A stretch of DNA of 64,000 nt from Ktedonobacteraceae bacterium (lineage in GTDB: Bacteria > Chloroflexota > Ktedonobacteria > Ktedonobacterales > Ktedonobacteraceae), in NCBI GenBank assembly GCA_035653615.1, contig DASRBN010000040.1, positions 1 to 64,000 on the forward strand, written 5' to 3'. The notes beneath the pieces are model-generated. The model saw only the letters and a list, made by a program, of their open reading frames with translations, was not told the origin of the DNA and ran no database searches. Below are positions 1 through 25,032 of the stretch, piece after piece; the stretch's first letter is position 1; each line of letters starts with the position of its first letter. A program made the position numbers and the translations under genes.

Positions 1-2
1 TG

Positions 3-7661: not shown

Positions 7662-7676
7662 GTAAAGGAACACAGT

Positions 7677-9233
7677 ATGCTCACATCTGAAACAGAACTG
7701 AAGCAGAAGATAGATGATTTATGGGACCGCTTCTGGTCGGGCGGGATTGCTAATCCCCTCTCGGCTATCGAGCAGATATCGTATCTCATATTTCTAAAGC
7801 GTCTCGAGGATCTAGATACGTATGAAGCATCCCTTGCCAAGCGCCAACAACGAACTTTTACTTCGTACTTCGAGGGACACGATGATTGCCGCTGGTCATT
7901 TATCAAGGAGCAACATCCAGATCGAATGCTCGAACTCGTTCGGGACAAGGCCTTTCCTTTTCTCAAAGAACTCAGAACTAATGGGAACACATTCTCTGAG
8001 GCAATGAAGGATGCGGTCTTTATTATTCCGAAAACATCGCTGCTGGCGAGTGCTGTTGCTATTATCGATACACTCCCCATCAGCGATCAAAACTTTGATA
8101 TGCAGGGAGACCTCTACGAGTATTTGCTCTCGGAGCTAAATCTTGCAGGGAAGAATGGTCAGTTCCGCACTCCACGGCACATCATACGCATCATGGTCGA
8201 GTTAGCCAATCCACGACTGGGTGAGTGGATCTTCGATCCTGCCGCCGGGACAGGAGGCTTCCTCGTCGCCGCCTATCAGTGGATCCTCAAGGCGAACACG
8301 CCACCAGAAACTGTGCGGATCGACACAGATGGCTCATGGCATAATTTGACGGGCGAGTTGATAGGACGCGATAGGCAGAAATGGGAATTGCTCGATGGAG
8401 AACGTCTTGTCGGTCGTGATTTTGATACGACGATGGTCCGTCTTGGATTAATGAACATGATGCTCCATGGGATTCGGCACCCCGAGTTTCGCTATAAAGA
8501 TACCCTTTCAAAAGGGTTTGAAGCAGGACAAAAGTTTGATGTCATCCTCGCTAATCCGCCATTTACTGGGAATATAGATAAGAGCGATATCAATAACGAA
8601 CTGCTCAAGCTTCCTACCACCAAAACAGAATTACTTTTTGTTGAGCTCTGTCTCGAACTCCTTGAAACTGGAGGCCGCTGTGCTATTATCGTCCCAGAAG
8701 GCGTGCTCTTTGGTTCAACCAAAGCTCATAAAGAGTTACGTCAGAGGCTTGTCACAGAAAACCAGATAGAGGCGATTATTTCGCTGCCGGGAGGCTGCTT
8801 TAAGCCTTATACAGGTGTGAAGACTGCAATCCTATTCTTTACTAAAGGAGGCACTACAGAGCGCGTTTGGTTCTATGAAGTTACTGGTGATGGTTATACC
8901 CTTGACGACAAACGCGCATCTGATCATACGCATAATAATTTGCGTTTTGTTTCCCAAGCATACCGTATTTTAGCAAGAAGCGACCGAGAAGCCTGGGAAA
9001 GTGACGAGGTACAGAAGGTTGCTCTAGAGCAATCTTGGATTGCCTCTCGTGAAGAAATTATAAGCCACAATTATAACTTAGCAGCTGGCATCTATCGACC
9101 TCGTTCTCTGGAGGAAATTGAACACGAAGATCCTCGTAAGATCATGTTTCGTGTGCGTAATCTAGAACAACAACTCCATCAGAAACTAGGCACCATTGAA
9201 AAAATGTTGGGCGAGGTAATAATCGATGCCTAA
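7677..9233 (+). CDS. hsdM: Type I DNA methyltransferase, M subunit
   Basis: The N6-adenine methyltransferase subunit, which protects host DNA and forms the core of the type I complex with HsdS. The SAM-binding motif I DPAAGTGGF is near residue 188 and the catalytic motif IV NPPF is near 293. The N-terminal helical region is typical of HsdM, and 518 aa is a normal length. The gene starts 15 bases after hsdR behind TAAGGA and overlaps hsdS by 8 bases, so M and S are translationally coupled. No motif is missing, so the methylase should be active. Confidence 0.96.
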   Translation: MLTSETELKQKIDDLWDRFWSGGIANPLSAIEQISYLIFLKRLEDLDTYEASLAKRQQRTFTSYFEGHDDCRWSFIKEQHPDRMLELVRDKAFPFLKELRTNGNTFSEAMKDAVFIIPKTSLLASAVAIIDTLPISDQNFDMQGDLYEYLLSELNLAGKNGQFRTPRHIIRIMVELANPRLGEWIFDPAAGTGGFLVAAYQWILKANTPPETVRIDTDGSWHNLTGELIGRDRQKWELLDGERLVGRDFDTTMVRLGLMNMMLHGIRHPEFRYKDTLSKGFEAGQKFDVILANPPFTGNIDKSDINNELLKLPTTKTELLFVELCLELLETGGRCAIIVPEGVLFGSTKAHKELRQRLVTENQIEAIISLPGGCFKPYTGVKTAILFFTKGGTTERVWFYEVTGDGYTLDDKRASDHTHNNLRFVSQAYRILARSDREAWESDEVQKVALEQSWIASREEIISHNYNLAAGIYRPRSLEEIEHEDPRKIMFRVRNLEQQLHQKLGTIEKMLGEVIIDA

Positions 9234-10737
9234 GATATCTACAGAATGGAAACAGCAGACTTTAGGGGAAATTGCTGAGATAGTCGGGGGCGGCACTCCT
9301 ACCCGCTCACGTCCAGAATTCTTTAGTGGCGATATACCTTGGGCCACCCCAACGGATGTTACTGCTCTTGATGGATACCTACTTTATGATACTAAGGAAT
9401 ATATCACGCAGGAAGCAGTCGACAACAGCTCTACACGTCTACTTCCGGTTGGCACTGTACTACTCACATCTCGGGCTACCATTGGTTCAGTTGCTATTGC
9501 CATGCGACCTATGTGTACTAACCAAGGCTTTGCAAACTTTATTTGTGCGCCAGAAGTTCATAACCGCTATCTCGCTTGGTTTCTACGTAGTAGTGCAAGC
9601 TATCTAAAAGGATTAGGTGGAACTACAACATTTCCAGAGATTTCAAAATCCACTCTACGCAACATAACTATTAGATATCCTGTCGATCCTTTAAAACAAG
9701 AGCAGATCGCTGATTTATTGGACGATGTTGATTCAGCTTGCCGCGTTTGTGATCAGATCAATAGGGAGATGGAGAAACTGATTACAGTGCTTTTTGTAAA
9801 GATATTTGGTGATCCTCTAAGCAATCCAAAGAAGTGGAATGTGGTAGAACTTGGTCAGTATGCAGAGATCGCAGGTGGTCTCCAAATAACACCGAAAAGA
9901 AACTCCAGTAGAGGTATTCCATATCTAAGAGTTGCTAACGTCTATCGAGACCGACTTGTGTTAAGCGAGATCAAAACGATGGATGTTTCCCCGGCAGAGT
10001 TAAAATCTAAAGCTTTGCAAAGGGGAGATATACTCGTCGTAGAAGGTCACGGAAATCCGGAAGAACTGGGAAGAGCTGCGGTATGGACAGGAGCTATAGA
10101 TCCCTGTGTTCATCAAAATCACCTTATTCGAATTCGTACAAACGGAAATATTCTTCGACCAGAATATTTATCTCGCCTTATCAACTCATCCTATGGCAGA
10201 AACTACTTCCTAAAAGTTGGTAAAACGACGAGCGGTTTAAACACGATCTCGACAACAGTTGTTAAAAGTTTTCCTACCCTTCTTGCTCCTCCAGAGCTAC
10301 AAGAGTATTTTACCAATCTCATACACGAATATGAGGAATACCGTGATGTTCAGGTTGAGATTGCTAAGGAACTGAAGTACTTATTTTCATCGTTGCTATC
10401 GCACATTTTTACAGGGATTTCGATCGACATTTCCTTGGATGAGGCTACAAATAAGCCCTCTCCCAGTCATATTTCTACGAAGCGCACAATTTGGTCCAAG
10501 CTTTCCATTACCCAACGCACTTTATGGGAAGCTTCACAGATCTTCACAGAACCATTTAAGGTAGAAGATCTTGGTGAGAGGGTCCATTCAGTGTATGGAA
10601 CTTCTCCCAACCGCGAGTACCTCTGGAGTTCATTAGACCTCCTTGACGCTCTCGGTGTCACCCTCAAAGAGGGGAATAATAACCTGGACAGATGGCGCCG
10701 ACCTGATCCAGAAAATGACCCGGAGATCAATATATGA
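9226..10737 (+). CDS. hsdS: Type I specificity subunit with C-terminal extension
   Basis: The DNA recognition subunit. Two target recognition domains are visible, about residues 1-190 (WKQQTLGEIAEIVGGGTP...) and 200-385 (WNVVELGQYAEIAGG...). Each is followed by a conserved coiled-coil spacer (LKQEQIADLLDDVDSA; LIHEYEEYRD). At 503 aa it is about 100 residues longer than a minimal two-domain HsdS. The extra tail, from about 400, looks like a small helical, winged-helix-like domain (SITQRTLWEASQIF...VEDLGERV...LDLLDALG). It overlaps hsdM by 8 bases and the ATPase gene by 4 (ATGA). The extension may be the contact point for the two accessory proteins; that is inference. Confidence 0.93.
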   Translation: MPKISTEWKQQTLGEIAEIVGGGTPTRSRPEFFSGDIPWATPTDVTALDGYLLYDTKEYITQEAVDNSSTRLLPVGTVLLTSRATIGSVAIAMRPMCTNQGFANFICAPEVHNRYLAWFLRSSASYLKGLGGTTTFPEISKSTLRNITIRYPVDPLKQEQIADLLDDVDSACRVCDQINREMEKLITVLFVKIFGDPLSNPKKWNVVELGQYAEIAGGLQITPKRNSSRGIPYLRVANVYRDRLVLSEIKTMDVSPAELKSKALQRGDILVVEGHGNPEELGRAAVWTGAIDPCVHQNHLIRIRTNGNILRPEYLSRLINSSYGRNYFLKVGKTTSGLNTISTTVVKSFPTLLAPPELQEYFTNLIHEYEEYRDVQVEIAKELKYLFSSLLSHIFTGISIDISLDEATNKPSPSHISTKRTIWSKLSITQRTLWEASQIFTEPFKVEDLGERVHSVYGTSPNREYLWSSLDLLDALGVTLKEGNNNLDRWRRPDPENDPEINI

Positions 10738-12329
10738 GGCTTCGACGGCTCTGGCTTGGCAATTATTATAACCTAAAAGAGGTTACCATAGAATTTGATC
10801 CATCTCCACCAATCTATGGTTCGACAAGCATACGCTTTTTTGTGGGGCTCAATGGTTCAGGAAAATCCAGCGCATTAGAGGCTATCGGCTTAATCTTCAG
10901 TCACCTGACGGCAGGAGCCAAACCCAGTATCGAATTTGATATAGAATATGAGTTGCGTAATCAAGTGATACGAATCACGAACCGACTTGAGAACGATTTC
11001 CCATTAGAACCGGTCTCTCCAATAGGAGCGGCAGTTCTTATACGCTCACCTTCAGAAGATGAGTGGAGGCAGGACCACCTGCGAAGGGAGTGGTCCTCTT
11101 CTGGCGATGCAATACTACCAAGCCGTGTTATCGGCTACTCGACAGGTCCTACAAGTGGCCTTCAATGGGCATTGTCTCGATCTATTGAACGTTTTGTATA
11201 TAACCGACTTGGAGATTTCGAGGATGAACGGCGCCCGGAAGGGCTGAGTGAAGAAGAATGGCAGGAGAATCGCCAACAAATGCGTGCCCTCCTTGAAGCT
11301 GAGCGTGACGATTACCTGGACAATCCCGACACTCTCTTTCTTGGTTCTGAGGATGCACTTTGTGCAGTCCTTCCTCTCCTTACTCATCAACCAGACGCGC
11401 CTGAATCCTCTGATTACTTGGAGAGACGTGCGTCCATACTGAACCGAATCGGTCTAGATCCAAGGGAGCCGCTTGCTGCCTTCACCTTTCACGTAACAGG
11501 AGATTGGGAAGTACGTCTCACCCCTAATCGCGCTAGGACCCTACGGAGTTTACTGCAGAAGGCTACTGTCAGAAGAACTATTGCATCAATTCCAACCCCT
11601 AACATCTCAAATGATGAGCCACCACCGTCAGACTTTTACGCCGCCTTTGACTTTGACGAAGCTTTCCGTACCCAAGAATTGCAAAAACTCATCCCCACGC
11701 CTCTGGCGTTCTTTGAGGAACTGCTTGCCTGGAAAAGGCAGGGGGGAGTACGGAGAATTCGGCTTGTGCTTAAAAAGCAAGGGATCGAAGATCTATTTAC
11801 AGAATCTGCACTGTCTGATGGAGAATTCCTCTATATCGGGCGCTATGCGGTATTATTGATGCTCAGGGAGGTACCAGAAATTCTTGTCCTTCTGGATGAG
11901 CCAGAGACCCACTTCAACGACCGCTGGAAGGTCGATCTTGTTAAAGACATTCATACCTTGATAAATTCTCAAAGTGGCGAACAGTCAGATCGTATTCGTA
12001 ACGAGGTATTAATCGCCACCCATTCAGGCCTGACATTAACAGATGCCGATCCACGGCAAGTTTACAAATTCGTAGAAAGGGAGGGGAAGATCTTCGTGGA
12101 ACCGCCACCCATTTCGCCTTTCGCCGCTAACCTCGGCGACATATCACGCACCTTCTCCGAAACAGAAAGAGCTATTGGGAATTATGCGAATGAGCGCATA
12201 GAAGAGGCTTTGCGAGCCGGATCTAGGGAAGAGATAGTACAGCTTGTAGATGAAGTTGTAGGACCGGGTTTCTATCGCTTCCGACTGCTGAATAAGCTAG
12301 AGCAACTCGAAGAGGAGAAAGGGGAGTAG
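10734..12329 (+). CDS. AAA/ABC-type ATPase coupled to the type I RM operon
   Basis: A 531-residue SMC/OLD-like ATPase. Walker A GLNGSGKS is at 38-45, an ABC-signature-like LSDGE is near 361, and Walker B LLDEPETH is near 386, followed by a switch histidine in IATHSG. The fold order (N-terminal strand, long insertion, C-terminal half-site) matches PtuA/RloA-like and restriction-associated ATPases. Its start overlaps the stop of hsdS (ATGA), so it is made with the specificity subunit. The next gene is an HNH nuclease, the ATPase-plus-HNH pairing of Septu systems. Its likely role is sensing and triggering the nuclease during infection. No TOPRIM domain is present, which argues against OLD and Gabija nucleases. 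Confidence 0.85.
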   Translation: MRLRRLWLGNYYNLKEVTIEFDPSPPIYGSTSIRFFVGLNGSGKSSALEAIGLIFSHLTAGAKPSIEFDIEYELRNQVIRITNRLENDFPLEPVSPIGAAVLIRSPSEDEWRQDHLRREWSSSGDAILPSRVIGYSTGPTSGLQWALSRSIERFVYNRLGDFEDERRPEGLSEEEWQENRQQMRALLEAERDDYLDNPDTLFLGSEDALCAVLPLLTHQPDAPESSDYLERRASILNRIGLDPREPLAAFTFHVTGDWEVRLTPNRARTLRSLLQKATVRRTIASIPTPNISNDEPPPSDFYAAFDFDEAFRTQELQKLIPTPLAFFEELLAWKRQGGVRRIRLVLKKQGIEDLFTESALSDGEFLYIGRYAVLLMLREVPEILVLLDEPETHFNDRWKVDLVKDIHTLINSQSGEQSDRIRNEVLIATHSGLTLTDADPRQVYKFVEREGKIFVEPPPISPFAANLGDISRTFSETERAIGNYANERIEEALRAGSREEIVQLVDEVVGPGFYRFRLLNKLEQLEEEKGE

Positions 12330-12338
12330 GGGGTAACA

Positions 12339-13460
12339 GTGCTTCTTCCAGTTAAAGAACCAACATGTGCTCAGGATCTACAAAAGATAATAGAGATGAT
12401 CGGATGGCTCTTGGATTACGTTGCTGATTGGGCAGGTGACTCATTCGATAGACAAGACTTCCGGGCCCGCCTTAAGGACACCGATTACGCGTCCTTGATA
12501 AATGTACGTTCAACATTTGGTCTCCCTACACTTCTGCAACTTTCACAGGATGAACGTAAGCAAATTCGCGATGCTTTTTATAACGATATTCAATTCTGTG
12601 ATCACCTTGAAAGTCCTGACTTCGAGTTTCTTTTCTCAAGCTTGCGTGAAACTGTGGAACAGTCTGGAGAGAATAAAGGACCAAAAGATGTTGGTAAAGC
12701 TTTCTTACTGCTTTTTTACGAACGGCTTGCTAGCTCGGGATTTCATGACCAAACTGGAGGTACTATATTTTGCTTAACTCGAACTCTCGTTGAGGAAGGC
12801 TATCGTAGGGCAAATGAAAAGATGGCTCGTTTATGTCCTGCTTGTTTGGGGTTACTGGAAGAAAGGACTTCGAAAACATCCCTTGTTGACTGTGAGCACT
12901 TCTTTCCTAGAAAATTATATCCACCGCTTATTATTCATCCTAATAACCTCATCTTTGTCTGCAAAGCTTGTAATCAACAACACAACGACGATAATCCGAT
13001 TGATCCCATTAGAGGCTCTGAAGTTGGTGGATTACGGAGAATATTCGTGCCCTATAGACGTTCGGCACTGAAGGCTAGAGATCTGCAAACACAAGAACTA
13101 GATGAACTTAGTCTTAAGTTTAACATGGAGGATTCTGAAAAACCTCTCGTAAAGCTTGTTGGTGGACCAGATGAGTACACTTCTGCTCGTGTCGAGAACC
13201 TTGATCGTCTCTACGGCCTTTCTGAACGTTGGAGCAAACTCCTCCCTGGGATATACGAAACAATACGAGAGTCAGCCCGAATTGACTTGGAGGATCAACC
13301 ATTAACACAACAAAACATCAAACGATATCTCAATAAGGAATTTAGAAAGCATAATATGTTGAGTCAAAGCCGCGAGGGAGAATATTTGACCGGTCAATAT
13401 TTACGCTGGATACAGCAGGAAAGATCGAATTTACTGATGAAAGAACTTACAATGCACTAG
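12339..13460 (+). CDS. HNH endonuclease, partner of the ATPase
   Basis: A 373-residue protein with a zinc-supported HNH site: Cys166-xx-Cys169, Asp184-Cys-Glu-His187, His200-Pro-Asn, and Cys208-xx-Cys211 with His215. The N-terminal 160 residues are helical and unrecognised. The long C-terminal part contains two conserved-looking segments (LDRLYGLSERW; RYLNKEFRKHN). The start is GTG at 12339 behind GGAGTAGGGGG, 9 bases after the ATPase stop. With the ATPase it forms a Septu-like effector pair; PtuB proteins are usually shorter, so this is a larger variant. The nucleic acid target is unknown. Confidence 0.85.
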   Translation: MLLPVKEPTCAQDLQKIIEMIGWLLDYVADWAGDSFDRQDFRARLKDTDYASLINVRSTFGLPTLLQLSQDERKQIRDAFYNDIQFCDHLESPDFEFLFSSLRETVEQSGENKGPKDVGKAFLLLFYERLASSGFHDQTGGTIFCLTRTLVEEGYRRANEKMARLCPACLGLLEERTSKTSLVDCEHFFPRKLYPPLIIHPNNLIFVCKACNQQHNDDNPIDPIRGSEVGGLRRIFVPYRRSALKARDLQTQELDELSLKFNMEDSEKPLVKLVGGPDEYTSARVENLDRLYGLSERWSKLLPGIYETIRESARIDLEDQPLTQQNIKRYLNKEFRKHNMLSQSREGEYLTGQYLRWIQQERSNLLMKELTMH

Positions 13461-14300: not shown

Positions 14301-15707
14301 TTACTTCCTGCGCTTCGCGATCTCCTCTTCTGTCGTACTGCTCGTCACCAACTCATACAATAATGCCTGTCCAGTTTTTGGACGCAATACACGACCCAAA
14401 CGCTGAATGTATTCACGCTTGGTGCTATTGCCGCTGACTATTATAGCGATGCGGCAATCGGGTACATCCACACCTTCATTGAGTACGCGACCAGAGACCA
14501 GTTTGGTATACTGACCAGAGCGGAAGCGTTCGAGTATGGCGCGACGTTCCTCATTTGGAGTCTTGTAGGTAATGCTTGGCAGGCAGAAACGGCGGCTGAT
14601 CTCATCGACGACCTGATTGTACTCTGAGAAGAGAATGACCTGGTCAACAGCATGAAGCTGCAGCAAGCGCTCGATCTCGATATATTTAACGGGGGCGTTC
14701 ATGGCGATATTGCGCATCTCGCGCCAGGCGAGCATGGCTTTACGCGCCTCGGGATCTCGCGCGCTGAGAAAAATAACTTTCTGCTGAAACTCTTCTGGAG
14801 AACGTATCACGATGTGTCGGCGCTGTAAGAAAGCCCTATAGATGCGTCTTTGTTCGGCGTAGCGCGCTTCGTCCTCGTTCGACAGGGCGATATCGATGCG
14901 TATCTCTTGGTATTGCGCCAGGTAACGTCCCTCGGTCAATTCTGCGGGCGAACGCCGATAGACCTCCGGCCCGATTAGATGCTGCAAATCAAGATGTGCC
15001 ATGTCACTACGTTCAGGAGTTGCGCTCAGTCCCAGGCGCAGGGGCGTAAAGGCGCTCTCTGCTATCAAGCGGTAGGTCGGCGCGGGCAAATGGTGACACT
15101 CATCGAAGGCCAATAGGCCGTAACGTCTGAGTTCGCGTGGGTAGAGTGCAGCGGAATCATAAGTGATTATTGTGATAGGTTTCATCTCTTTCTCTCCACC
15201 ACCAAAGAGACCAATTTCATCAGGGCTCAAGGATAGTGCGGAGACCAGAGCGGTGCGCCATTGTTCTAGGAGGTCGAGTGTGGGTACAACGACCAACGTC
15301 CATAGAGCCGTTTCGTGAATAGCCATTGCCGCCACGAGTGTCTTTCCTGAGCCGGTGGGCAGGATAATCACACCCGCACTACCCTGTGCCACCCAGTTGG
15401 CCAGAGCCTCATTTTGATAAGGGCGTGGCTCGATCTGTAGCGCAGTCGCAAAGGGAAGAGCAGGCCGTTCCTCAAATGCAACATTAAATGCTGTACGTTG
15501 TGCCTGTAAAGCTTGTTTCACTGCCTGAAAATGAATCGGCTGCGTGCGCAAGAAAGCATGTCGCTTATCACGTCCCATAGCCGTACGCACATCCGCAGGC
15601 AAGTACGTTCCAAACAGCGTTTGTAGCAGTTCCGGCGTTGAAAGGCGCTGCATCCCTTCGCTGGGGATTATAATGAGGTCGCGACCTCGATGATCGATGG
15701 TAGTCAT
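14301..15707 (-). CDS. XPB/SSL2-like superfamily 2 helicase (complete copy on the element)
   Basis: A 468-residue DNA helicase of the XPB (ERCC3/Rad25) type, which opens DNA with ATP and in archaea works with the nuclease Bax1. Visible parts are an N-terminal damage-recognition-like region, Walker A LPTGSGKT at 116-123, DECHH at 202-206, SATPERSD (motif III), and the C-terminal RecA domain with LNEGVDVPDC and QRLGRVLRP (motif VI). From DECHH to the end it is about 84% identical, by my count, to the truncated gene at 24229. Its base composition is closer to the accessory DNA. All motifs are intact, so it is probably active. It may replace the chromosomal helicase broken by the element. Confidence 0.9.
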   Translation of the reverse strand: MTTIDHRGRDLIIIPSEGMQRLSTPELLQTLFGTYLPADVRTAMGRDKRHAFLRTQPIHFQAVKQALQAQRTAFNVAFEERPALPFATALQIEPRPYQNEALANWVAQGSAGVIILPTGSGKTLVAAMAIHETALWTLVVVPTLDLLEQWRTALVSALSLSPDEIGLFGGGEKEMKPITIITYDSAALYPRELRRYGLLAFDECHHLPAPTYRLIAESAFTPLRLGLSATPERSDMAHLDLQHLIGPEVYRRSPAELTEGRYLAQYQEIRIDIALSNEDEARYAEQRRIYRAFLQRRHIVIRSPEEFQQKVIFLSARDPEARKAMLAWREMRNIAMNAPVKYIEIERLLQLHAVDQVILFSEYNQVVDEISRRFCLPSITYKTPNEERRAILERFRSGQYTKLVSGRVLNEGVDVPDCRIAIIVSGNSTKREYIQRLGRVLRPKTGQALLYELVTSSTTEEEIAKRRK

Positions 15708-15897
15708 TGAGCAACTTCGCTTTTTATTTGAGATAGCAAACGACCAAAGTCAGTCTGATCGGGTAATGCTAGATTCCTCTTCTTCTACAATGAAAAACCC
15801 TTCTTACAAAAATGTCTCGGCCAGATTTTCAGAATGATATCACATTAGAATAAGCCTATTGTAGCGGAGGATGCTATCTAATGCAACGTATTGTATA

Positions 15898-16208
15898 TTA
15901 CTCGGAGTTGTCCTCATTGGCAAAGAAATGCTGCCGCCATGTCAGCATATACCCGTTTATTACCCACGCTTGAAGCATTCGGTCGTGGAGATAGGTATTC
16001 TTTGCAGCTAGCTCAGCGTAGCAGTCTACAGCGAAGTCAATCATGGACAGGTACTCCATCTCCTCAGGATTGCTCATCGCACGAGCAAGGGATTGTCGAA
16101 AAAGTGCCTCCCCTTGCTCCCTCGCCAGTCGAGTTCGAAACGCTTGCTTATTTGTGCCATCTCAACCGCACGGGCAAGAAAAGGTTCAAGATGATCGTTC
16201 CTCACCAT
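15898..16208 (-). pseudogene. Small helical protein gene with a frameshift
   Basis: An ATG at 16208 overlaps the stop of the upstream nuclease-like gene (ATGGTGA), a typical coupled start. The frame gives MVRNDHLEPFLARAVEMAQ then ISKRF. After that, a shift to the neighbouring frame continues with RTRLAREQGEALFRQSLARA and a soluble, Trp/Tyr-rich tail (LTWRQHFFANEDNSE) to TAA at 15898-15900. The span is 311 bases, one short of a multiple of three. Either the gene is broken, the read has an error, or a programmed shift occurs near 16136. I do not recognise the family; the joined product would be about 103 aa. Confidence 0.45.
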
Positions 16209-17119
16209 GGCATCGATTCAACCTCACAACAGAGGCGGAACTCTTGACGAAGAGCAGCCACGTTGCGACAAGCGCCTCCGGTAAGTTCGTAAAAAAACTC
16301 TTCAAGAGACCAACTTAGAAACTCTCCTTGCCGTGCCATATAGATGCCAACGGAGTGGATATGATATTCGTCCTCAAAGTCGAACAGAACGGATCCAGCG
16401 AGTTGACGCAGCCAGGCGGCAGGGATCTTCGGCTCACAGTTTGTCTTGATCTCAATCAGGCATCTATCGACAATGAGGTCAGCACTTTCTTTACCCAGGT
16501 CATTATGACCTAAAAAGGTAGGGTTGATAATAGAAGGGGAGTACAACAAGGTGGAATATTTATCATAGAAATATGCAAACATTCTAGTAAGATCGTCGAT
16601 CCATCCCTGGAGCGGAATGGCTAAAAGGTCGTCCATGTCCTTTTCGTAAATCGGTTTGAGCAGCGGGCAGTTTCTGTAGCTTTTAGTACGGAATATTTCT
16701 TCGATGAGACCCAAAACGAAGCAGTAACGGGCCAACATTTGTTCAGATTCCACATCTAGATGTCGACCTGCCGGCTGCAGTAAGGCAAGAGCTGACTCTA
16801 ATTGCTGAAAGAACCCCTCAAAAATGCGAGAGAAGTCTTTAAAGTATATATCTTCCATCCTCCAGGCCACGTGTGACGCGATGTGCCACGCGTGTAAATC
16901 CTGAGTTGTTGTATCAGCGAATCCGTACCCAATTCGATAGTAAATGGCCTTCTCGAGTGTCCTGTATGGGCTACCCACTGCGAAAGGAAGCAACGTGTCC
17001 GCTGATCGCAGTTGTTGTTTGATCCGCCTTGTGAGAGAAGTTACGTGCAACAAATCCTTTCGAAGGAAGTCTCCCACATCGCTTTCTTTATGGTGGCGGA
17101 GATGCCAGGTGAGCGACAT
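16202..17119 (-). CDS. PD-(D/E)XK-type nuclease-like protein of the element
   Basis: A 305-residue protein, otherwise unrecognised. Near the C terminus it has SADLIVDRCLIEIKTNC, which matches the PD-(D/E)XK nuclease core (Asp, then Glu-x-Lys at the end of a strand). A helix with LRQLAGSVL and a strand with VGIYMAR follow, as in restriction-like folds. The N-terminal 200 residues are helical. The start at 17119 (MSLTWHLRHH) is chosen because the longer start at 17170 would run into the upstream gene. It lies between the TnpC-like gene and the helicase, as cargo of the element. A nuclease working with the helicase is plausible but unproven. Confidence 0.55.
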   Translation of the reverse strand: MSLTWHLRHHKESDVGDFLRKDLLHVTSLTRRIKQQLRSADTLLPFAVGSPYRTLEKAIYYRIGYGFADTTTQDLHAWHIASHVAWRMEDIYFKDFSRIFEGFFQQLESALALLQPAGRHLDVESEQMLARYCFVLGLIEEIFRTKSYRNCPLLKPIYEKDMDDLLAIPLQGWIDDLTRMFAYFYDKYSTLLYSPSIINPTFLGHNDLGKESADLIVDRCLIEIKTNCEPKIPAAWLRQLAGSVLFDFEDEYHIHSVGIYMARQGEFLSWSLEEFFYELTGGACRNVAALRQEFRLCCEVESMPW

Positions 17120-17147
17120 TGTGACTACGGCCCTTTCTCCTAATAGG

Positions 17148-17618
17148 TTATATGGGGTTAGTATCAGCATTGTTTACGATAGTGAGGTGAGGTCGTGCTG
17201 ATCCATGGGATGGTTGAACGATAACCTGTCCCCCTTCTTCTAAACGCTTCTGTAGTAGCCCTATCTGCTGACGAAGCTGAATGTTCTCTTTCTCGTATTG
17301 TTCTATTAAACGAATTGCCTCATCCAGATCCTCAATGGCAGAAGTGCGTACCTGAAGCAGAGCTTTTTTAAGTTGTTGACGAAGGTCAGCAACCTCGCGG
17401 CGCAGCTGGAAAAGCTCTTCGTCTCGAGAGAGACGTGGTCCAGGTAGTTGAGAACGTAACTCTTGAAACTCTGGGCGAACAAGCTTATAGAACCGGACAG
17501 TCGAGATCCCAGCTGCTTCAGCTATTTTTGCAGGGGTGAAGTCTCGTTGGCTCTGTGCCTTCTGATGCAGTTCGTTCATAATCTCAAGAAGTTGTGTGCG
17601 TCTATCTGTCGCTTTCAT
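17148..17618 (-). CDS. TnpC-like HTH/coiled-coil accessory protein
   Basis: A 156-residue protein. Residues 5-58 form an HTH-like module (FTPAKIAEAAGISTVRFYKL), residues 65-135 a long coiled coil (LRREVADLRQQLKKALLQ...LRQQIGLLQKRLEE), and the tail is short and disordered. Size, architecture and position match TnpC of Tn554-type transposons, which affects the efficiency and orientation of integration. Its ATG overlaps the stop of the upstream recombinase by 4 bases. The N-terminal module resembles the B repeats of the giant recombinase at 19525. Confidence 0.75.
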   Translation of the reverse strand: MKATDRRTQLLEIMNELHQKAQSQRDFTPAKIAEAAGISTVRFYKLVRPEFQELRSQLPGPRLSRDEELFQLRREVADLRQQLKKALLQVRTSAIEDLDEAIRLIEQYEKENIQLRQQIGLLQKRLEEGGQVIVQPSHGSARPHLTIVNNADTNPI

Positions 17619-19528
17619 GTGTCCGGTCCTTTCTCCTGGATTTCTTGCAGGCGCGTTTTGAGACGCTCCTTTAAATCTTGACTACTCTCTGGGAGGGCTT
17701 CCAAATCACAACGTGAAAGAGCCTCTATCTCTAGAGCCTCTGCGCGACGAGAGAGTATTCCGTGCTGCTCCGCCTGCACCTCGTGTCCAGATCTAATACT
17801 CTCCTGTTCCTGTTGTTGGTGCGCACGCACCGTTTTTGTGATCTGGATTAACATCTCCGCATTTTGGGGATCAGTGGCAAACCATCTACAACCGCCATCC
17901 TCCGCAGTTGTGCAATTCAGATAATCATCACATGCTGCAGGGCCCTGAGGGAGCCAACAGTAGCCACATGAAACGCGATTGGGTTGCATAAACTGTGGGT
18001 TGTTCTGTATAAGGTTGCGCCAACGGGGAGGGATCGGCTTAGGCTGCCCAGATCGGAATCGCGGCTTCCGTTCGGAGTCCTGATAGTCTGTACCGAAAAG
18101 TGTGGAGAACCAGTCCGTCGCGGGGCCCACAAGCTCGCCATTCTTAGCTTTTTCAAGGAGGATCATATTCTGCTCGCGTGCATTATGCTGATAATGAGAT
18201 TGCATATTACGGTCAGTGTGGTTGAGATCACGTTGCCGTGATAGAATAGGCACTTTAGGATCGCTAGCAATGGCAGATTGGCGTGTGTGCCGTGCTTGGT
18301 GGGTTCGTAAGCGATAGATTTCACCGTCGGCGGATCCATCCGCAGTGATGTTCCACCGCTCTAGTATTCCCAGCTCGCCATGAGTACCATGCAGCCAGTG
18401 CTGAAAGGCATCGTAAGAAAGTACCCTTGCATCCTTTTGTATCTGTGATTCCGGGGGGCCGCCCTTGTATTTACGTGAAGACCGGAACTCATCAATATTC
18501 TCTCGTGGAAAAGCCCGAATAGCGCTGGGGCCACATGTGAGATTCCAGTGAGAAATCAATATTAAAAATTCCCGTTCCTCTACAGGGGCAGCGTCGCGAA
18601 CTTCGTCGCCATAACGTATAAGCTCTGTAACGCAATATGTCACGATATCTTCCCACTTACCACTCACATACACGCGGTTTTGAGGCCCGTGTTTATTTGG
18701 GGAGAACTGGAACCAAAGTGCTCCTTTAGGTCCACTTCCCCTGGCGGGGTAGTACACTAGTGGACCTTGCGGACCTGTTCCTCGTGGAGCTGTCAGTACC
18801 TCACCGATCCTTCGGCCTAGGGCGAAGTTGAGAATGAGAACGCAGAGGCGGAGATGATGGAAGCGGTTGAGCTTTTCACGTGCTTCACGATGAAGCGCAA
18901 GTTTATTGAAGAATTGGCTAATAACAGGCATGGGAATCACCTGGTGGGTATCCAGGGCGGATTCACCCGGCCTTTTCTTCTCATGAGGTGCTACTGGAAA
19001 GATAACCCGTGGGAATCCAAAGTGCATCCTCAAGTGTTTCCAGAAGGAGCGAGAATGTGTTTGCACCCGTACTCTGTCTCTAAAAGCGGCGGCGTCATTG
19101 TTTTTCAGGGGAAGGAGTTGTGCATTCCAGAGTGCCCTGAAGTCGCTCTCAAGGGCGATATCATCGCAAGACTCGCAATGATGATCGATAAGGTAGGTAT
19201 CAGCGCGTTTAAGCACGTTAGGTATCGCTATAGTGTAGGCTGAGAGCACGTCGTTGCATGCGAGAAGGCGCTGATAGCAGTGCCACTTGACATAGGGCTT
19301 CAAAAAAGAGTGGAGGTTTGCAAAATGAAAGCGATAGTAGCCCGGTTGTGAGGGAGCGCCGTGGGCGGCATACTGCCACGCATCCCATACATCTGAGGCA
19401 AGATAGAAGAGATTTTTGGGATCGCGTTCATCGCCTGTTATGAAGCGACTAAGTTCATTCCAATGACTTGTAGGATAACGGTGGTTTCTAGAAGAGTCGG
19501 ATAGAATCTGCTTGCTATCTACGCTCAT
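17615..19528 (-). CDS. Tyrosine recombinase 3 with Cys-rich tail (TnpB-like)
   Basis: A 637-residue site-specific recombinase. The catalytic domain is visible as LGRRIGEVL (first Arg), THQARHTRQ (box II His-x-x-Arg) and LNHTDRN-MQSHY (His and nucleophile Tyr). A Cys-rich segment follows (CGYCWLPQGPAACDDYLNC, then a further Cys), probably a zinc finger, and a charged coiled tail. This layout and length fit TnpB of Tn554 (about 630 aa). It overlaps both neighbours by 4 bases (19525-19528 and 17615-17618), showing tight co-expression of the recombination genes. Confidence 0.85.
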   Translation of the reverse strand: MSVDSKQILSDSSRNHRYPTSHWNELSRFITGDERDPKNLFYLASDVWDAWQYAAHGAPSQPGYYRFHFANLHSFLKPYVKWHCYQRLLACNDVLSAYTIAIPNVLKRADTYLIDHHCESCDDIALESDFRALWNAQLLPLKNNDAAAFRDRVRVQTHSRSFWKHLRMHFGFPRVIFPVAPHEKKRPGESALDTHQVIPMPVISQFFNKLALHREAREKLNRFHHLRLCVLILNFALGRRIGEVLTAPRGTGPQGPLVYYPARGSGPKGALWFQFSPNKHGPQNRVYVSGKWEDIVTYCVTELIRYGDEVRDAAPVEEREFLILISHWNLTCGPSAIRAFPRENIDEFRSSRKYKGGPPESQIQKDARVLSYDAFQHWLHGTHGELGILERWNITADGSADGEIYRLRTHQARHTRQSAIASDPKVPILSRQRDLNHTDRNMQSHYQHNAREQNMILLEKAKNGELVGPATDWFSTLFGTDYQDSERKPRFRSGQPKPIPPRWRNLIQNNPQFMQPNRVSCGYCWLPQGPAACDDYLNCTTAEDGGCRWFATDPQNAEMLIQITKTVRAHQQQEQESIRSGHEVQAEQHGILSRRAEALEIEALSRCDLEALPESSQDLKERLKTRLQEIQEKGPDT

Positions 19529-22455
19529 GCATGGAACCTCTCTTGGACGAATACAAAGTTCGCCTCAAAACGCTCAAACTGATATTTCTTCTGAGCAAGC
19601 AACATTTCTGATCCTGGTACTTCGGCCAAATTCTCTAGTTCCTGTTTGCGATGGCGATGTTCCATTTTCCATGCATCAAAAAACTCCGGCCCCGTCACGA
19701 GGTGCTCGCATAATGAGCAAGGAGGAGGGCTTCCTTGAATAGCCTTGACACAACGCTTATGACGGCAGCGACCAACATCCTGCATCTGCTTCACTCCTGT
19801 ACTTAGCAGTGAGACGCGTTCCTCGGGATCAAGCTCATCTAGAATCAAGGGAGCCTGCCAAAGAGTCAAAGCTGTTCGTCCGTATTCATCAAGAGGTGTG
19901 CCTACCTCGGCTGGATGCTCGAACCGATCAAACTTAGCGTAACGAAGCGTACTGCTGAAATGAAGATGCCCGAGTTGCGCACGCACTGCCGCGAGATTTC
20001 TACCTTCGTATAATGCGCGTGTGGTATAGGTTCGCCGGAGTACTGTGGGGTTTAGCGGAAGGAGAACACCTTCTCGTTCGAGACGATGGCGTTTTGCAAA
20101 TTCCAGTAAACGATGGGGCAATCCGGAACAAGGTTGTACTTCCCAATGCCCTCGAGTGTTGCTGCTGAGAAACACAAATTCTGTTGCAAGCGCTGCACGA
20201 ACCTGAGCTGTATGTTCAACATACAGCTGCAGCTGTTGGGCAAGGAGGGCAGGAAGCACTGCACCATTCTCCTCTACCTTCTTGTTATGCTTCCACGCTA
20301 GAATATACAAGCCTGGGTGGACTTCTGCCCAATCGTCCGTTTTGAGGCGGAGAATGCTTTCGCGTCGCAAACCAGTGAACAGCATAAGAAGAATCATGAG
20401 TGCGGTTGCCCACTGGATGACAACCGCAGCGTTCTCTTTTGAGAGCGGGTGCAGGCTTACCGTAAGCAGATCGGGGTTCGTGTTTATATAGGCAATACCT
20501 GCGATGATGTCAGTAAGACATCCCTGAATGACGGCATTCCATTCATTCTCGGAGAGGAACTCTTCACCAACTTCTGTACGCCCGACTTTGACGTCGTCCC
20601 GCAGCCAAACTGAAATACGAAGCATCTCCATTTCGTCAATAGCATCATCATGCTGAGCCAAGCGCATCAACTCTTCAAAGATGAGCGCAAGGCATGGTCG
20701 TGCTAGCTGACGCAGCGCCTGGGTTCCATTGAAAGTCATCCAAGCTCGTTGCACGCCTTCTAATCTAGCTCGACGGATATCGGGTACCTCCTCTCCGAGG
20801 AGAGCAATCCCCTTGAGGAATCCCTGGTAGTGACGATCTACAGTACCAAGAGCAATGTCTGGCGAACGTAGCTCTTCCCGCAGAAAGGTCCACCCGATAT
20901 CAGCAAAATCCTTACGAAGCCGTCCTCTTTGGAGGAGATTCTTTCCTGCAGGCCTTAAATCCCAGCTGTTACTATCAAGATCGATCCAACCTCCGGGAAT
21001 TTCTCGTACATTCATGCCAGCAGGGGGGGCTTTAGGCTGTTCACGTGTATGAAGTGCAAGTTGACGACGTGCAGCGAGATATGGCTCCTTGAACCACGGC
21101 CATGTTCCCGCTCCGTTGACGTCAGCCAGTTCTATAACGCGCTGTCTGGTCAACTCGCTGACAGGTATATGGGCATCTACTAGACTCTGAAGAGCAGCCA
21201 AAACCTTCTCTTCAGTCGTTGGAAGCGTTGCTCTACGAGCTTGCCATTCTTCTCCTATATAATGAGATGCCAGGTTAGAGGGAATATTTACCAGTGCAGC
21301 GATTTTTGGCATCGTAAAGTCTTCTTGCGTTTTGGCTTCTGCGTAGACCCTCTCCATTGCCTGCCGCATTTGCTGCAAAGTGGCAGTGTATTGAGGTGGG
21401 AGTATCTCCCGGCGCGAACGCCATTCGTCTGCAGGAAAGTGATCCCGCGCTGTAGCGACAGGTATGCCCGCACGCTTTGCTATGTTTACCACGCTGAAAT
21501 CGGCCTGATACCTTGCTTCGGCATAGACAGCATCCATCGCTTCTTTCAGGCGCATCTCGATCCATTGGTTCCGTAACATCTCCCACTGTCGCTTAGAAAG
21601 CCGCTTGAATACATGTTTGCTTGGGACTCCCAAGGATTTGGCAAAGCACTTCATTGTCACGTCTTCATAACGCTGAGTTCGTGCAAGATAAGCCTCGGCC
21701 TGGAGCAGATACGAGGCAGCTTCGGCCTCCTCTCGAGTTTTGGGAAGTGCTGCTCGGCGGGTTCGCCACTCGTCCTCCGAAAGGAAGCGACGAACCGTCG
21801 CGAGAGGTATCCCGGCATGCCTGGCAATGTTCTTTATAGTAAAGTCGTCCTGGGTGGTGGCTTCTGCGTAAGCGGCCTCCATAGCCTGTCTTAAGCGGTT
21901 CTCGATCCATTTACCTCGTAGTTCCTCCCATTGATATTTGGGAAGTCGCCTAGTTACTATACGTTCTGGCTCTCCCAGAAATTCTGCAAATTGCTTGAGC
22001 GACAGCGACTCGTACTGCTCTGTCGACGCACAATACCTCTCTGCGTGAAGATAGTATTGTGCAGTTATGTTAGACAGCTTTTGAAGTACTGTCCTGCCTC
22101 TAGATGGGGGAAGCATGGTTCGACTGGCTTGCCATTCGTCACTGGAGAGAAAGCTTTTCACGATGACGAAGGGCATCCTGGCATGTCTGGCGATGTTCTC
22201 TACAGTCAACTCTGCCAGGGTTTTACCTTCTGTGCGGAGGTCTTCTATAATCTTTCTTAGTCGGCTTTGAATGCATGTACGCCGTAATTGCTCCCATTGG
22301 GGTATTGGAAGCCGTCGGTATATTATGTCGACTCTAATGCCTAAGAAATCGGCAAGTCCCTGCTGCGTCATCGCTTCGTACGTTTCAGCTTGTGCGAGGT
22401 ACTGCTCTGCTGCCTGGAGTAGGTACTGCCTGGTCATTCTGGAATCTTTAGTCAT
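19525..22455 (-). CDS. Giant tyrosine recombinase with N-terminal HTH-like repeats
   Basis: A 976-residue recombinase. Residues 10-413 are built of alternating A modules (YLLQAE...RLPKYQWEELR; about 10-62, 133-183, 248-299) and B modules (AMEAAYAEA...DFTIKNIARHAGIP...DEWR; about 63-117, 184-238, 300-353, 360-413), each HTH-like. A SAM-like domain and a catalytic domain follow: FTGLRRESILRL, NPTVLRRTYTT, and LGHLHFSSTLRYAKF with the likely nucleophile Tyr. The usual box II His before the second Arg is not at its expected place. A CxxxxC...CxxC tail follows. The start at 22455 follows GGAGAG and overlaps the upstream stop by 8 bases; a start at 22506 is less likely. Confidence 0.85.
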   Translation of the reverse strand: MTKDSRMTRQYLLQAAEQYLAQAETYEAMTQQGLADFLGIRVDIIYRRLPIPQWEQLRRTCIQSRLRKIIEDLRTEGKTLAELTVENIARHARMPFVIVKSFLSSDEWQASRTMLPPSRGRTVLQKLSNITAQYYLHAERYCASTEQYESLSLKQFAEFLGEPERIVTRRLPKYQWEELRGKWIENRLRQAMEAAYAEATTQDDFTIKNIARHAGIPLATVRRFLSEDEWRTRRAALPKTREEAEAASYLLQAEAYLARTQRYEDVTMKCFAKSLGVPSKHVFKRLSKRQWEMLRNQWIEMRLKEAMDAVYAEARYQADFSVVNIAKRAGIPVATARDHFPADEWRSRREILPPQYTATLQQMRQAMERVYAEAKTQEDFTMPKIAALVNIPSNLASHYIGEEWQARRATLPTTEEKVLAALQSLVDAHIPVSELTRQRVIELADVNGAGTWPWFKEPYLAARRQLALHTREQPKAPPAGMNVREIPGGWIDLDSNSWDLRPAGKNLLQRGRLRKDFADIGWTFLREELRSPDIALGTVDRHYQGFLKGIALLGEEVPDIRRARLEGVQRAWMTFNGTQALRQLARPCLALIFEELMRLAQHDDAIDEMEMLRISVWLRDDVKVGRTEVGEEFLSENEWNAVIQGCLTDIIAGIAYINTNPDLLTVSLHPLSKENAAVVIQWATALMILLMLFTGLRRESILRLKTDDWAEVHPGLYILAWKHNKKVEENGAVLPALLAQQLQLYVEHTAQVRAALATEFVFLSSNTRGHWEVQPCSGLPHRLLEFAKRHRLEREGVLLPLNPTVLRRTYTTRALYEGRNLAAVRAQLGHLHFSSTLRYAKFDRFEHPAEVGTPLDEYGRTALTLWQAPLILDELDPEERVSLLSTGVKQMQDVGRCRHKRCVKAIQGSPPPCSLCEHLVTGPEFFDAWKMEHRHRKQELENLAEVPGSEMLLAQKKYQFERFEANFVFVQERFHA

Positions 22456-23695
22456 GGAATCTCTCCAAAAGACCTGCTCGTTTGAGTAGATGTGCGAACT
22501 TCTCATTTTCTGGCGCTACAATCTGGTCGGCGAATGCCTCACTGCTTGCTATATAAGGGTCAATGGAGCGAATCGAAGCGTGTCTCATATTCGAGACGAT
22601 ACCGCCGGGGCCTACCAGCTTTTGAAGGTCGTACCCGAATGAGTGCCGAAGTTTGTGAGGGGTAAGGAGCTTATTCCAGGGAGAGGTAAGAGCGGGGCGA
22701 AGTGTATTGAGCATGGCACGTACGCTCTCGCCACCGAGTTTCTCTCCATAGTTTCGCACACTGTGGCTGAGAAAAACATATTGTTGGTGTTCTGGAGCAG
22801 TATCTGACGGGATGGGTCGGTAATGGGTAGCATAGTGCCAAATTATTTTTTCTACCCAGGGAACCATAAGAACAGGTAAGCGCCCTCCTCCTTCCGCTCT
22901 GTGTCCCTTTGTGGTCAGATAGATGAGAGAGTTCTTGCGGTCAATATCTTCGAATCGAAGTTCCACAACTTCGGAGCGACGACTGCCAGCGCAGCGAAGC
23001 ACCATGAGGATGGCGAGATTACGGTAAAAGAGCGCCCCTCGCTGCATTTCAGGCTCTTCTGCACAGGCAATATCACCATCGGCAATTTCTTGCCCCCATC
23101 GGTCATTGGCTGCACGAAGCAAATGAACAAACTGATCGTCAGGTATGCCGACGGCCCTACGAGTAGCCCACTTGAAGCGATGTGAACGAGGAAAGTGCCA
23201 GGAACGGGAACGAGAAGGATTCGCAAAATTGCGTACAGTACTGACTAAGTGGTTTGGTATTCCTTTATATCGCCGCCAGTCAAAAGAAACTCCATACCGA
23301 TCTGTGATGTCTGCGGTAAGAGAGTAGAGGAGCGTAATCATGAGATCGGCAGTGCGTTTTCCCCGTTTCCCAGGCAATTGAACTTGCGTACCTTGAGCAT
23401 TTGGAAACGGCTGACCAATTAAAGCATCCACGAACCACTTAAATTCTTCATTCGTAATACCAATGAGAGATTGATGACGGTGGGCGCAGAACTCAGCATA
23501 AAGGCGAGCCGCCCGTAAATAGGTATCGATTGATACCCGTGTTGCGCCTTCGTGTAGCTGGCGATCTTGCAGTGCAAGGTTGATCGGTGTAAGGGGTACC
23601 CCTCCAGCCATGAGTTTCGGTTCGCCGTCAACAAACCTAACTCGGACGGGTAATGTGAGAGGAAGAGTAAGTGTAATGCCTGGTGTTAAGGCCAT
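22448..23695 (-). CDS. Tyrosine recombinase 1 (TnpA-like)
   Basis: A 415-residue recombinase, the first gene of the leftward recombination operon. An N-terminal core-binding domain (RLYAEFCAHRHQSL...) precedes the catalytic domain with RCAGSRRSEVVELR (first Arg), HKLRHSF (His-x-x-Arg), MRHAS and IDPYIA (His and Tyr). All catalytic residues appear present. The start MALTPG at 23695 follows AAGGAG with 7-base spacing and is preferred over a longer frame beginning at 23854. It overlaps the next gene by 8 bases. In Tn554 the corresponding TnpA carries out strand exchange together with TnpB. Confidence 0.88.
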   Translation of the reverse strand: MALTPGITLTLPLTLPVRVRFVDGEPKLMAGGVPLTPINLALQDRQLHEGATRVSIDTYLRAARLYAEFCAHRHQSLIGITNEEFKWFVDALIGQPFPNAQGTQVQLPGKRGKRTADLMITLLYSLTADITDRYGVSFDWRRYKGIPNHLVSTVRNFANPSRSRSWHFPRSHRFKWATRRAVGIPDDQFVHLLRAANDRWGQEIADGDIACAEEPEMQRGALFYRNLAILMVLRCAGSRRSEVVELRFEDIDRKNSLIYLTTKGHRAEGGGRLPVLMVPWVEKIIWHYATHYRPIPSDTAPEHQQYVFLSHSVRNYGEKLGGESVRAMLNTLRPALTSPWNKLLTPHKLRHSFGYDLQKLVGPGGIVSNMRHASIRSIDPYIASSEAFADQIVAPENEKFAHLLKRAGLLERFHD

Positions 23696-23944
23696 CCTAT
23701 TCTCCTTGATATCATTTGTGTCAAAGCAAGGGATCAATCTCATCTGTTCTGTCTTGGATGCCAAAGTTTGGCTTGGACTACTAACAACGTGCTCTTGAAC
23801 AACAAACTTCGGAAAAAGAGTCCGTTGGCTTGAGAGGACCTTGCCTGGGTCCAAACCAAAGAAATAAAACCTTCCTTTGGTTTGATACTAACCTATGCGA
23901 AACAATTATTCAATGCATCATTACTTTATTCCTATTTGACTATT

Positions 23945-23973
23945 GCTAGATTGTATATTTTGTACAATCTAGC
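23945..23973. promoter_or_regulatory. Inverted repeat near the element end
   Basis: GCTAGATTGTA at 23945-23955 and TACAATCTAGC at 23963-23973 are perfect complements around 7 AT-rich bases. There is no following T-run, so a terminator is unlikely. The position, 250 bases upstream of the recombinase start and 256 bases from the junction, suits an operator or a recombinase-binding site. Confidence 0.45.
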
Positions 23974-24000
23974 CGTCAAAAGGGATGCGGATTATGGGGT

Positions 24001-24111
24001 ATGGAGCTGTGGTGTGTAGTATGTCAAGGTAATCTTCTTCCTGGTGAACCCTGTTATCGTAGCAGACCAATTCACCAGGTTCCGCATTGTTTAGGGCGGG
24101 TCGCTCTGTAA
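24001..24111 (+). CDS. Possible 36-residue Cys-rich (zinc-knuckle) protein
   Basis: ATG at 24001 opens a 36-codon frame beginning MELWCVVCQGNLLPGEPCY and continuing to HQVPHC near the end. It thus has CxxC, then Cys, then His-x4-Cys, a plausible single zinc site. It is upstream of and divergent from the recombinase operon, near the element end. The ribosome binding site is poor (AAAAGGGATGCGG is about 10-20 bases upstream), so expression is uncertain. Confidence 0.35.
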   Translation: MELWCVVCQGNLLPGEPCYRSRPIHQVPHCLGRVAL

Positions 24112-24228
24112 CTCATGAAGAGAAATCATGCACCCGCGGTGAAAAATCCCGCATAGTTTGCTTAGAGCGTTGAGAAGCAGTAAAATGTGCGTATGAACCA
24201 GTTAATTAACAGCATCGATTACACAGAA

Positions 24229-25032
24229 GATGAATGTCATCATTTGCCCGCGCCGACCTATCGTTTGATCGCCGAAAGCGCCTTCACTCCCTTGCGTTTA
24301 GGTGTGAGCGCCACACCCGAACGCAGCGATATGGCCCATGTTGACCTGGATGGGCTGATTGGACCGGAAGTTTACCGGCGCTCGCCGTCGGAACTGACCG
24401 AGGGGCGCTACCTGGCGCAATACCAGGAAGTGCGCATCGATATCGCCCTTTCGAGCGAGGATGAGGCTCGTTATAGCGCCTTGCGTGCGATCTATAGCTC
24501 GTTCTTGCGACGGCGGCGTATCAGTATCAACTCGCCGGAGGATTTTCAGAAGAAGCTGATTTTTCTCAGCGCCCGCGACCCGGAGGCGCGCGAGGCGATG
24601 CTGGCATGGCGCGAGGCTCGCAGTATCGCTATGAACGCCCCGGCCAAATACGCCGAAATTGAACGGCTCCTGCGCCTGCACACCAACGACCAGGTCATCC
24701 TGTTCTCCGAGTACAATCCGGTTGTTGAAGAGATCAGCCGGCGCTTTTGCCTGCCGAGCATCACCTACAAGACGCCTGCCGAAGAACGCCGCATCATCCT
24801 GGAGCGGTTCCGCTCGGGCCAGTACAGCAAGCTTGCGACCGGCCGTGTGCTGAACGAGGGCGTCGACGTACCCGATTGCCGCATCGCCATCATTGTTAGC
24901 GGCAACAGCACCAGGCGCGAGTATATTCAACGCCTGGGGCGTGTCCTGCGCCCCAAGCTTGAACAGGCGGTGCTCTATGAACTCGTCACCGCCGGGACTA
25001 CTGAGGAAGACATTGCTAAACGCAGGCGCTAG
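24229..25032 (+). pseudogene. Chromosomal XPB-like helicase, 5' half lost at the element junction
   Basis: Similarity to the intact helicase at 14301-15707 begins exactly at GATGAATGTCATCATTTGCC, which encodes DECHHL, and runs to the C terminus (RLGRVLRP, then IAKRRR). It lacks Walker A and the whole N-terminal half, so it cannot be a working helicase. A frame from GTG at 24187 adds 14 unrelated residues from the element side. The coding sequence is GC-rich like the chromosome to its right, marking it as the resident copy. Its 3' end overlaps the convergent kinase gene by 17 bases. The Bax1-like nuclease at 27975 would be its original partner. Confidence 0.85.

Follow-up and report, generated by a model that had tools for sequence, protein, structure and literature searches.

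The stretch of DNA analysed here, hereafter called the window, spans 64,000 nucleotides of a Ktedonobacteraceae bacterium and corresponds to positions 1-64000 of contig C40 in a draft genome of 44 contigs and 6.59 Mb. Its first part (window 1-24228) is assigned to an island inserted in the gene of an XPB-type helicase; the remainder of the island is on a second contig (C43:34863-55566), starting with CBASS-like genes. At its right end, the island bears a minus-strand operon of four genes (window 17148-23854) that encodes three tyrosine recombinases and a small helix-turn-helix (HTH) protein; the operon is followed by a putative PD-(D/E)XK nuclease gene and then by a complete XPB gene, both on its strand, and the native XPB resumes with its 3′ half just beyond the right end. 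The initial annotation had placed the element between 14301 and 25032; it ends instead at 24228, has its other end on C43 and, with 44.8 kb known, is about four times larger.

The Split Native XPB and Its Ancestral Locus

The native XPB gene is cut at the D-E codons of the motif F-D-E-C-H-H (DECHH), and its halves are found on C43 and C40. In the window, a plus-strand helicase frame covers 24187-25032; it matches XPB only from GATGAATGTCATCAT at 24229, and the sequence before this point is unrelated, confirming that the helicase remnant begins at the DECHHL codons as had been noticed at first. The 3′ half (24229-25032, plus strand) runs from the D-E of DECHH to the stop codon, with 84% protein identity to residues 201-468 of the XPB carried by the island. 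As for the missing 5′ half, a whole-genome search with the carried XPB returned one further fragment of the close family, C43:34170-34862, equivalent to residues 1-203; its native portion (C43:34170-34856) pairs with the 3′ half at window 24229-25032 and ends where predicted, on a separate contig. This fragment departs from XPB at GACGTGCTCTGGGTAATCGA, and the junction on C43 reads, in succession, CTGGTCTTC, the hexamer GACGTG and CTCTGGGTAATCGA.

No stop or frameshift interrupts either half up to its junction, the two fit to the codon, and once rejoined they restore F-D-E-C-H-H as in 29 relatives, all of which have an unbroken XPB with this motif at the site (the comparison set for XPB and for the terminal motif described below comprised 60 relatives). 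The D-E codons at this position are GAYGAR in 29 of 29 cases. Regarding selection, the halves have a codon-position pattern and a nonsynonymous divergence (dN) like those of the intact relatives, consistent with ordinary purifying selection; codon positions and dN were used because synonymous divergence (dS) is saturated between genera. This pattern, together with the lack of stops, argues that the native XPB was constrained until recently and that its disruption is a recent event.

The neighbourhood of XPB was compared in four relatives (loci L045-L048, from G004, G008, G013 and G026). The gene order is rnc, methyltransferase, meaB, XPB and an antisense Ser/Thr kinase in G026, and methyltransferase, meaB, recQ, dprA and XPB in G008; a kinase follows XPB in G013, while G004 has the same genes around XPB in another arrangement. 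Here, the segment from rnc to dprA precedes the 5′ half on C43, and on C40 the 3′ half runs on into an antisense kinase, as in G013 and G026. The check that the initial annotation had suggested, namely an uninterrupted XPB in related genomes, came out positive: in the relatives examined more widely, the intact gene lies by the meaB/rnc and/or kinase genes, which in this genome flank the two separate halves.

Two features of this locus are worth recording on their own. The native 5′ half (L007 1985-2070, C43) has an insertion of about 28 residues that is absent from the other XPBs compared, and the corresponding DNA holds a palindrome-like GATGAATCG...CGATTCATC. In addition, recQ-like and dprA-like genes precede XPB both here (L043 13085-16148) and in G008 (L046 13360-16497); over the compared stretches they are unmatched in G004, G013 and G026, and their local GC content is lower than that of the surroundings.

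Ends and Extent of the Element

Imperfect terminal inverted repeats of about 28 bp are located just inside the two junctions, with sequence TCTGGGTAATCGAGGAGTGTTAATTAACT on C43 and TCTGTGTAATCGATG-CTGTTAATTAACT on the reverse strand of C40. The right repeat occupies window 24200-24227 (minus strand), and its partner on C43 lies just inside the left spacer, with the motif core at C43:34870-34891. Their alignment score is 36, to be compared with maxima of 28 in 20,000 shuffles and of 24 in 20,000 random pairs drawn from the element. The genome has exactly two occurrences of a degenerate version of the repeat motif, located at the two junctions in opposite orientation, and the 60 relatives have none; therefore, the two repeats are regarded as the two ends of one element.

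Between repeat and host there is a 6-bp spacer at each end: GATGAA at the recombinase end (window 24229-24234, plus strand), and GACGTG at the far end; the two share 3 of 6 bases. GATGAA corresponds to the D-E codons of the target itself and the distal spacer differs from it, as expected from the 6-bp rule of the SE and Tn554 elements discussed below. GACGTG is one base away from GACGAG, the D-E codon pair in the XPBs of several relatives, which hints at an earlier insertion in an XPB gene; by our own count, about 1.5% of all hexamers are within one base of GAYGAR.

As for the extent of the element, the last 141 bases of C43 (C43:55426-55566) are the reverse complement of window 1-141 and are found nowhere else in the assembly. 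This shared end suggests that C43 and C40 adjoin at a short inverted repeat, which would give an element of about 45 kb; if the contigs adjoin, C43 from 34863 to its end plus C40 1-24228 amount to 44,791 bp so far. The GC content is 0.50 in the element, versus 0.53 and 0.55 in the flanks. The 141-base inverted sequence itself is the end of a reading frame. No gene order is shared between the relatives and the stretches of the element, only isolated matches of single genes.

The Recombinase Operon

The operon is read away from the junction, on the minus strand, and neighbouring genes overlap by 4 bp at two places (19525-19528 and 17615-17618). The first gene (22448-23854), in the position of GinA or IntA, encodes a tyrosine recombinase of 468 residues with a Phage_integrase match (E 3.5e-11) and the residues R, HxxRH, H and Y recognised by reading; its true start is probably an inner ATG. 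The second (19525-22506) encodes a recombinase of 993 residues (Phage_integrase, E 5e-10). The third (17615-19528), in the position of IntB or TnpB, encodes a protein of 637 residues that has no Pfam match and is assigned by motif reading and a weak profile match: its R, HxxRH, H and Y align with those of SE IntB, and the SE IntB profile reaches E 6e-5 among five proteins. The fourth gene (17148-17618), in the position of GinD, Srap or TnpC, encodes an HTH/coiled-coil protein of 156 residues, detected by the Srap profile with E 1.6e-5 among five proteins. The initial annotation had a recombinase triplet abutting the junction; a minus-strand operon does begin there, and it also includes this small TnpC/Srap-like gene, followed by the putative nuclease gene. 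Three regions in the N-terminal portion of the 993-residue recombinase are matched by the 156-residue protein; therefore, this recombinase has a series of N-terminal HTH units similar to the HTH of the small protein.

The SE-type profiles were built from ten SE-type operons, with E values computed among five proteins. The IntA profile prefers the 993-residue protein; all SE profile matches are weak (10-13 bits or less), and weaker still once phylum relatives are added to the profiles. BLASTP of the operon proteins against the SE proteins gave nothing significant. Other copies of the recombinases were searched for in 400 genomes of the phylum, in pattern-scanned genome and viral contigs, and in plasmids, and none was found, with the sole exception of a decayed fragment of 104 residues (57%) in G019; hence, no close relative of the set is present in any collection searched. 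The initial annotation had named copies of the recombinase triplet at unrelated sites as evidence against its proposal; neither the recombinases nor the termini turned up at other sites.

Operons of similar, GInt/SE-like layout, with two or three recombinase genes, occur in two other genomes of the phylum: in G175 (L106 1479-6701) the proteins have 378, 590, 623 and 150 residues, the last from a small fourth gene, and in G298 (L107 2794-9091) they have 498, 912 and 690 residues. The 912-residue middle protein of G298 may be built like the 993-residue recombinase with its HTH repeats. An AlphaFold model of the 637-residue recombinase, computed without relatives, had a pLDDT of 38 and was discarded as useless.

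The Carried XPB

The complete XPB of the element (window 14301-15707, minus strand) has the ResIII, Helicase_C and ERCC3_RAD25_C domains. The initial annotation had put its identity to the native gene at about 84% over the shared part, and this value holds for the protein encoded by the shared 3′ part; over the whole length, computed after joining the native halves by script, it is 78%. In the phylogeny, the carried XPB groups with the XPB of G004, a member of another genus (support 99/96), apart from the native copy, which indicates separate descent of the two genes. A second XPB at this identity was found in 0 of the 60 relatives searched, and searches of phages and plasmids with XPB returned distant helicases only (<60%). 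Beside the carried gene, window 14115-14186 matches ten places in G017 at 78%, and it is probably a mobile-element remnant.

Comparison with Known Elements

The closest parallel is RME of Vibrio cholerae S24, a 32.8-kb island of lower GC content inserted in recA and bounded by 9-bp inverted repeats; it carries a complete recA that is 23% divergent, and its excision and re-insertion in recA have been demonstrated by experiment (PMC4405046). The element described here is likewise bounded by inverted repeats, lower in GC, and located inside a DNA-repair gene of which it carries a complete divergent copy; the disrupted XPB and the intact, divergent one in the same element make it a candidate target-replacing island, of which RME can be taken as the direct precedent. 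The two differ in the target (XPB versus recA) and in the host, that of RME being a gammaproteobacterium; moreover, RME has its recA at the end away from the integrase, and it is described with a phage integrase and a XerS-type recombinase (PMC4405046), whereas here XPB is beside a four-gene recombination operon. According to its authors, the gene carried by RME avoids harm and the disruption of the native copy avoids a conflict between two versions (PMC4405046), a reasoning that would apply here as well. The initial annotation knew of no XPB target with a carried copy; we found no earlier case for XPB as the replaced target, nor for this recombinase set, and yet RME does likewise with recA.

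GInt elements have the operon ginABCD at one end, coding for three tyrosine recombinases and a small helix-loop-helix protein, with the cargo right after the fourth gene; they span 2.5-70 kb and are site-specific, and their att repeats are short, imperfect and compatible with cuts staggered by 6 nt (PMC5385486). Their cargo often includes restriction systems and comes from related bacteria, and the Gin families are reportedly 24-40% identical among themselves (PMC5385486). Our element resembles them in the four-gene operon at one end, in the cargo directly after the fourth gene and in the imperfect flanking repeats, a likeness of layout. Unlike our element, the GInts described so far lie at the ends of genes or leave the target expressed, with no target copy reported; in addition, GinC does not have the first catalytic Arg, which each of the three recombinases here appears to retain.

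SE elements have the operon intA-tfp-intB-srap and imperfect terminal inverted repeats of 13-19 bp; they are small (median 15.7 kb) and confined to Gammaproteobacteria (PMC10214605). Their rule is that the 6 bp proximal to the recombinases come from the target, the distal 6 bp being a footprint of the donor site, and Tn554-related elements leave a footprint of the same kind (PMC10214605). Our element shares with them the operon layout, the inverted repeats at its termini and the 6-bp fingerprint/footprint rule; it is larger than the SE median, and its proteins give weak profile matches to SE proteins, with no BLAST similarity. Its middle 993-residue protein has a Phage_integrase match, whereas SE Tfp has no catalytic motif. 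Two SE-type elements in Citrobacter plasmids (L090 1337-2725, L093 7781-9169) have a gene for a 462-residue superfamily 2 (SF2) helicase and two small genes next to the operon, perhaps a defence module; these helicases are 76% identical to each other and about 24% to XPB, and are on different sides of the operon.

The Tn554 family, proposed at first as the closest kind, shares an ordinary and a large tyrosine recombinase, a small TnpC and the 6-bp footprint, and it inserts site-specifically in radC, a gene related to repair. However, our element has three recombinases and not two, and the exact set TnpA, TnpB and TnpC is not present; it is better described as GInt/SE-like on account of the four-gene operon, the terminal repeats and the 6-bp spacer. 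Tn554 itself is not known to bring along a copy of its target. RIT elements also have three adjacent, slightly overlapping tyrosine recombinase genes, in about 3.5 kb and with neither cargo nor a TnpC-like fourth gene (PMC3414803), both of which are present here. Finally, the Gamma-mobile-trio (GmtY, GmtX, GmtZ) was considered and rejected: only GmtY gave a match, with 33.5 bits versus a cut-off of 340.

Proposed Mechanism and Alternative Explanations

We consider it likely that an island of about 45 kb, equipped with its own four-gene recombination operon, inserted site-specifically in the D-E codons of XPB and carries its XPB as a replacement. In the proposed mechanism, a circular form with a 6-bp spacer would recombine with the GATGAA core of the XPB DEAH box; after integration, the end next to the recombinases would retain the 6 bp of the target, and the opposite end would bear the previous spacer, GACGTG. 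The native XPB would be inactivated, and the intact XPB beside the operon, if expressed and functional, would take over and remove the insertion cost. The D-E codons are conserved in every XPB examined, so that related hosts would all offer the site to an element that is still active. The initial proposal of XPB as a target with a replacement gene is therefore supported in essence, while regular targeting and the function of the carried copy are extrapolated from one insertion.

Several points weigh against this reading or call for caution. The insertion is a single one, with no second example of the recombinase set at XPB, and GACGTG, the distal spacer, does not encode D-E, so that the previous site was possibly not an XPB. 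The recombinases have weak homology to known operons, and the profile matches support a likeness of kind and not membership. Some relatives (G002 and G014) appear to have no such XPB; therefore, this helicase may be dispensable and its replacement maybe not essential. At meaB and rnc, too, no compared genome is closer than G004, whose XPB groups with the carried one, and thus the donor may be near kin. Last, the continuity of C43 and C40 is suggested, and not proven, by the shared 141-base end.

The alternative that survives best, although we judge it rather unlikely, is that the island did insert in XPB and that its own XPB is cargo of the ordinary kind, such as one member of a repair or defence pair with the PD-(D/E)XK gene, its match to the target being coincidental. 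The position of XPB after the putative nuclease gene on the same strand would agree with this, as would the other relatives of chromosomal genes in the element, recD2 and xerC, and the unrelated SF2 helicase next to the operon of the two SE-type plasmid elements. On the other hand, only a few genes of the cargo are closely related to one of the chromosome's several thousand, and the probability of a chance match with the target is roughly estimated to be <1%; besides, none of the 60 relatives has a second XPB of this identity, and RME pairs target and cargo in the same manner (PMC4405046).

Still less probable is an origin of the junctions from a rearranged pair of elements, by recombination between two copies, the intervening stretch being partly ordinary chromosome. 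C43 and C40 are indeed separate contigs, and ordinary-looking genes (recD2, an epimerase, a dehydrogenase and an ArgE/DapE-type deacylase) are present in both inner stretches; nevertheless, each terminus occurs once, the inner contig ends have in common a 141-base sequence that is unique in the assembly, recD2, xerC and the epimerase are matched by related genes at other genome positions, and the gene order is not shared by any relative.

A chromosomal deletion or duplication with no mobile element involved, which could be suspected from two inverted XPB copies 9 kb apart, is ruled out for practical purposes by the 5′ half that survives elsewhere with its ancestral neighbours and by the matching inverted repeats and 6-bp spacer at both breaks, the complete XPB not being a sister of the split one. 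An assembly artefact, with two contigs of a 44-contig draft wrongly ended inside XPB, has a negligible probability, given that the junctions are well inside the contigs, fit at the same codon and share inverted repeats.

Returning to the replacement island, a broader version is conceivable, and we advance it tentatively: a separate lineage of four-gene recombinase islands in this phylum would always cut XPB at the DEAH-box codons and always carry an XPB, so that XPB alleles would spread between genera and loss of the element would mean loss of the host's repair helicase. If the main interpretation is true, the element would be a second, independent case, besides the recA island of Vibrio, in which the disrupted gene is fully replaced by the island itself, in another phylum and with another repair gene. 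It would point to a general strategy in which the codons of a catalytic motif serve as landing sites in every related host, the carried copy removing the insertion cost, and it would widen the range of islands moved by three recombinases plus a helper protein, since the collections searched hold no close relative of this set. It would also provide a route for swapping housekeeping genes between genera, with misleading gene trees as a consequence.

Other Cargo

The first cargo gene, that of the putative PD-(D/E)XK nuclease (window 16202-17170, minus strand), has a weak PADLOC match to RTasPDDEXK (E 1e-8), and its start overlaps the fourth gene of the operon (17148-17170). Farther from the operon, window 4884-13460 (plus strand) contains type I restriction-modification genes (R, M and S), an AAA ATPase and an HNH-type protein, based on PADLOC and NCBIfam matches. 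At the far end, on C43 (L043 17018-17938; L044 1-2587), there are two SMODS/CD-NTase genes and an S_4TM effector in a CBASS-like set; beyond it are an AbiJ-like gene and the relatives of recD2 and xerC. The element is a defence-rich island. A third partial frame in the CBASS-like set resembles the SMODS/CD-NTase genes.

The carried recD2 relative (L044 3683-5926) has 68% DNA identity to C37:408512-410687, and the xerC/D-type gene (L044 13183-14193) has 71% to C32:106429-107338; XPB is thus not the sole diverged duplicate of a chromosomal gene in the element. Finally, window 4083-4239 and 4514-4679 match one and the same sequence of G003 on opposite strands (80% and 69%, respectively), and thus form an inverted repeat, now diverged, ahead of the type I restriction genes.

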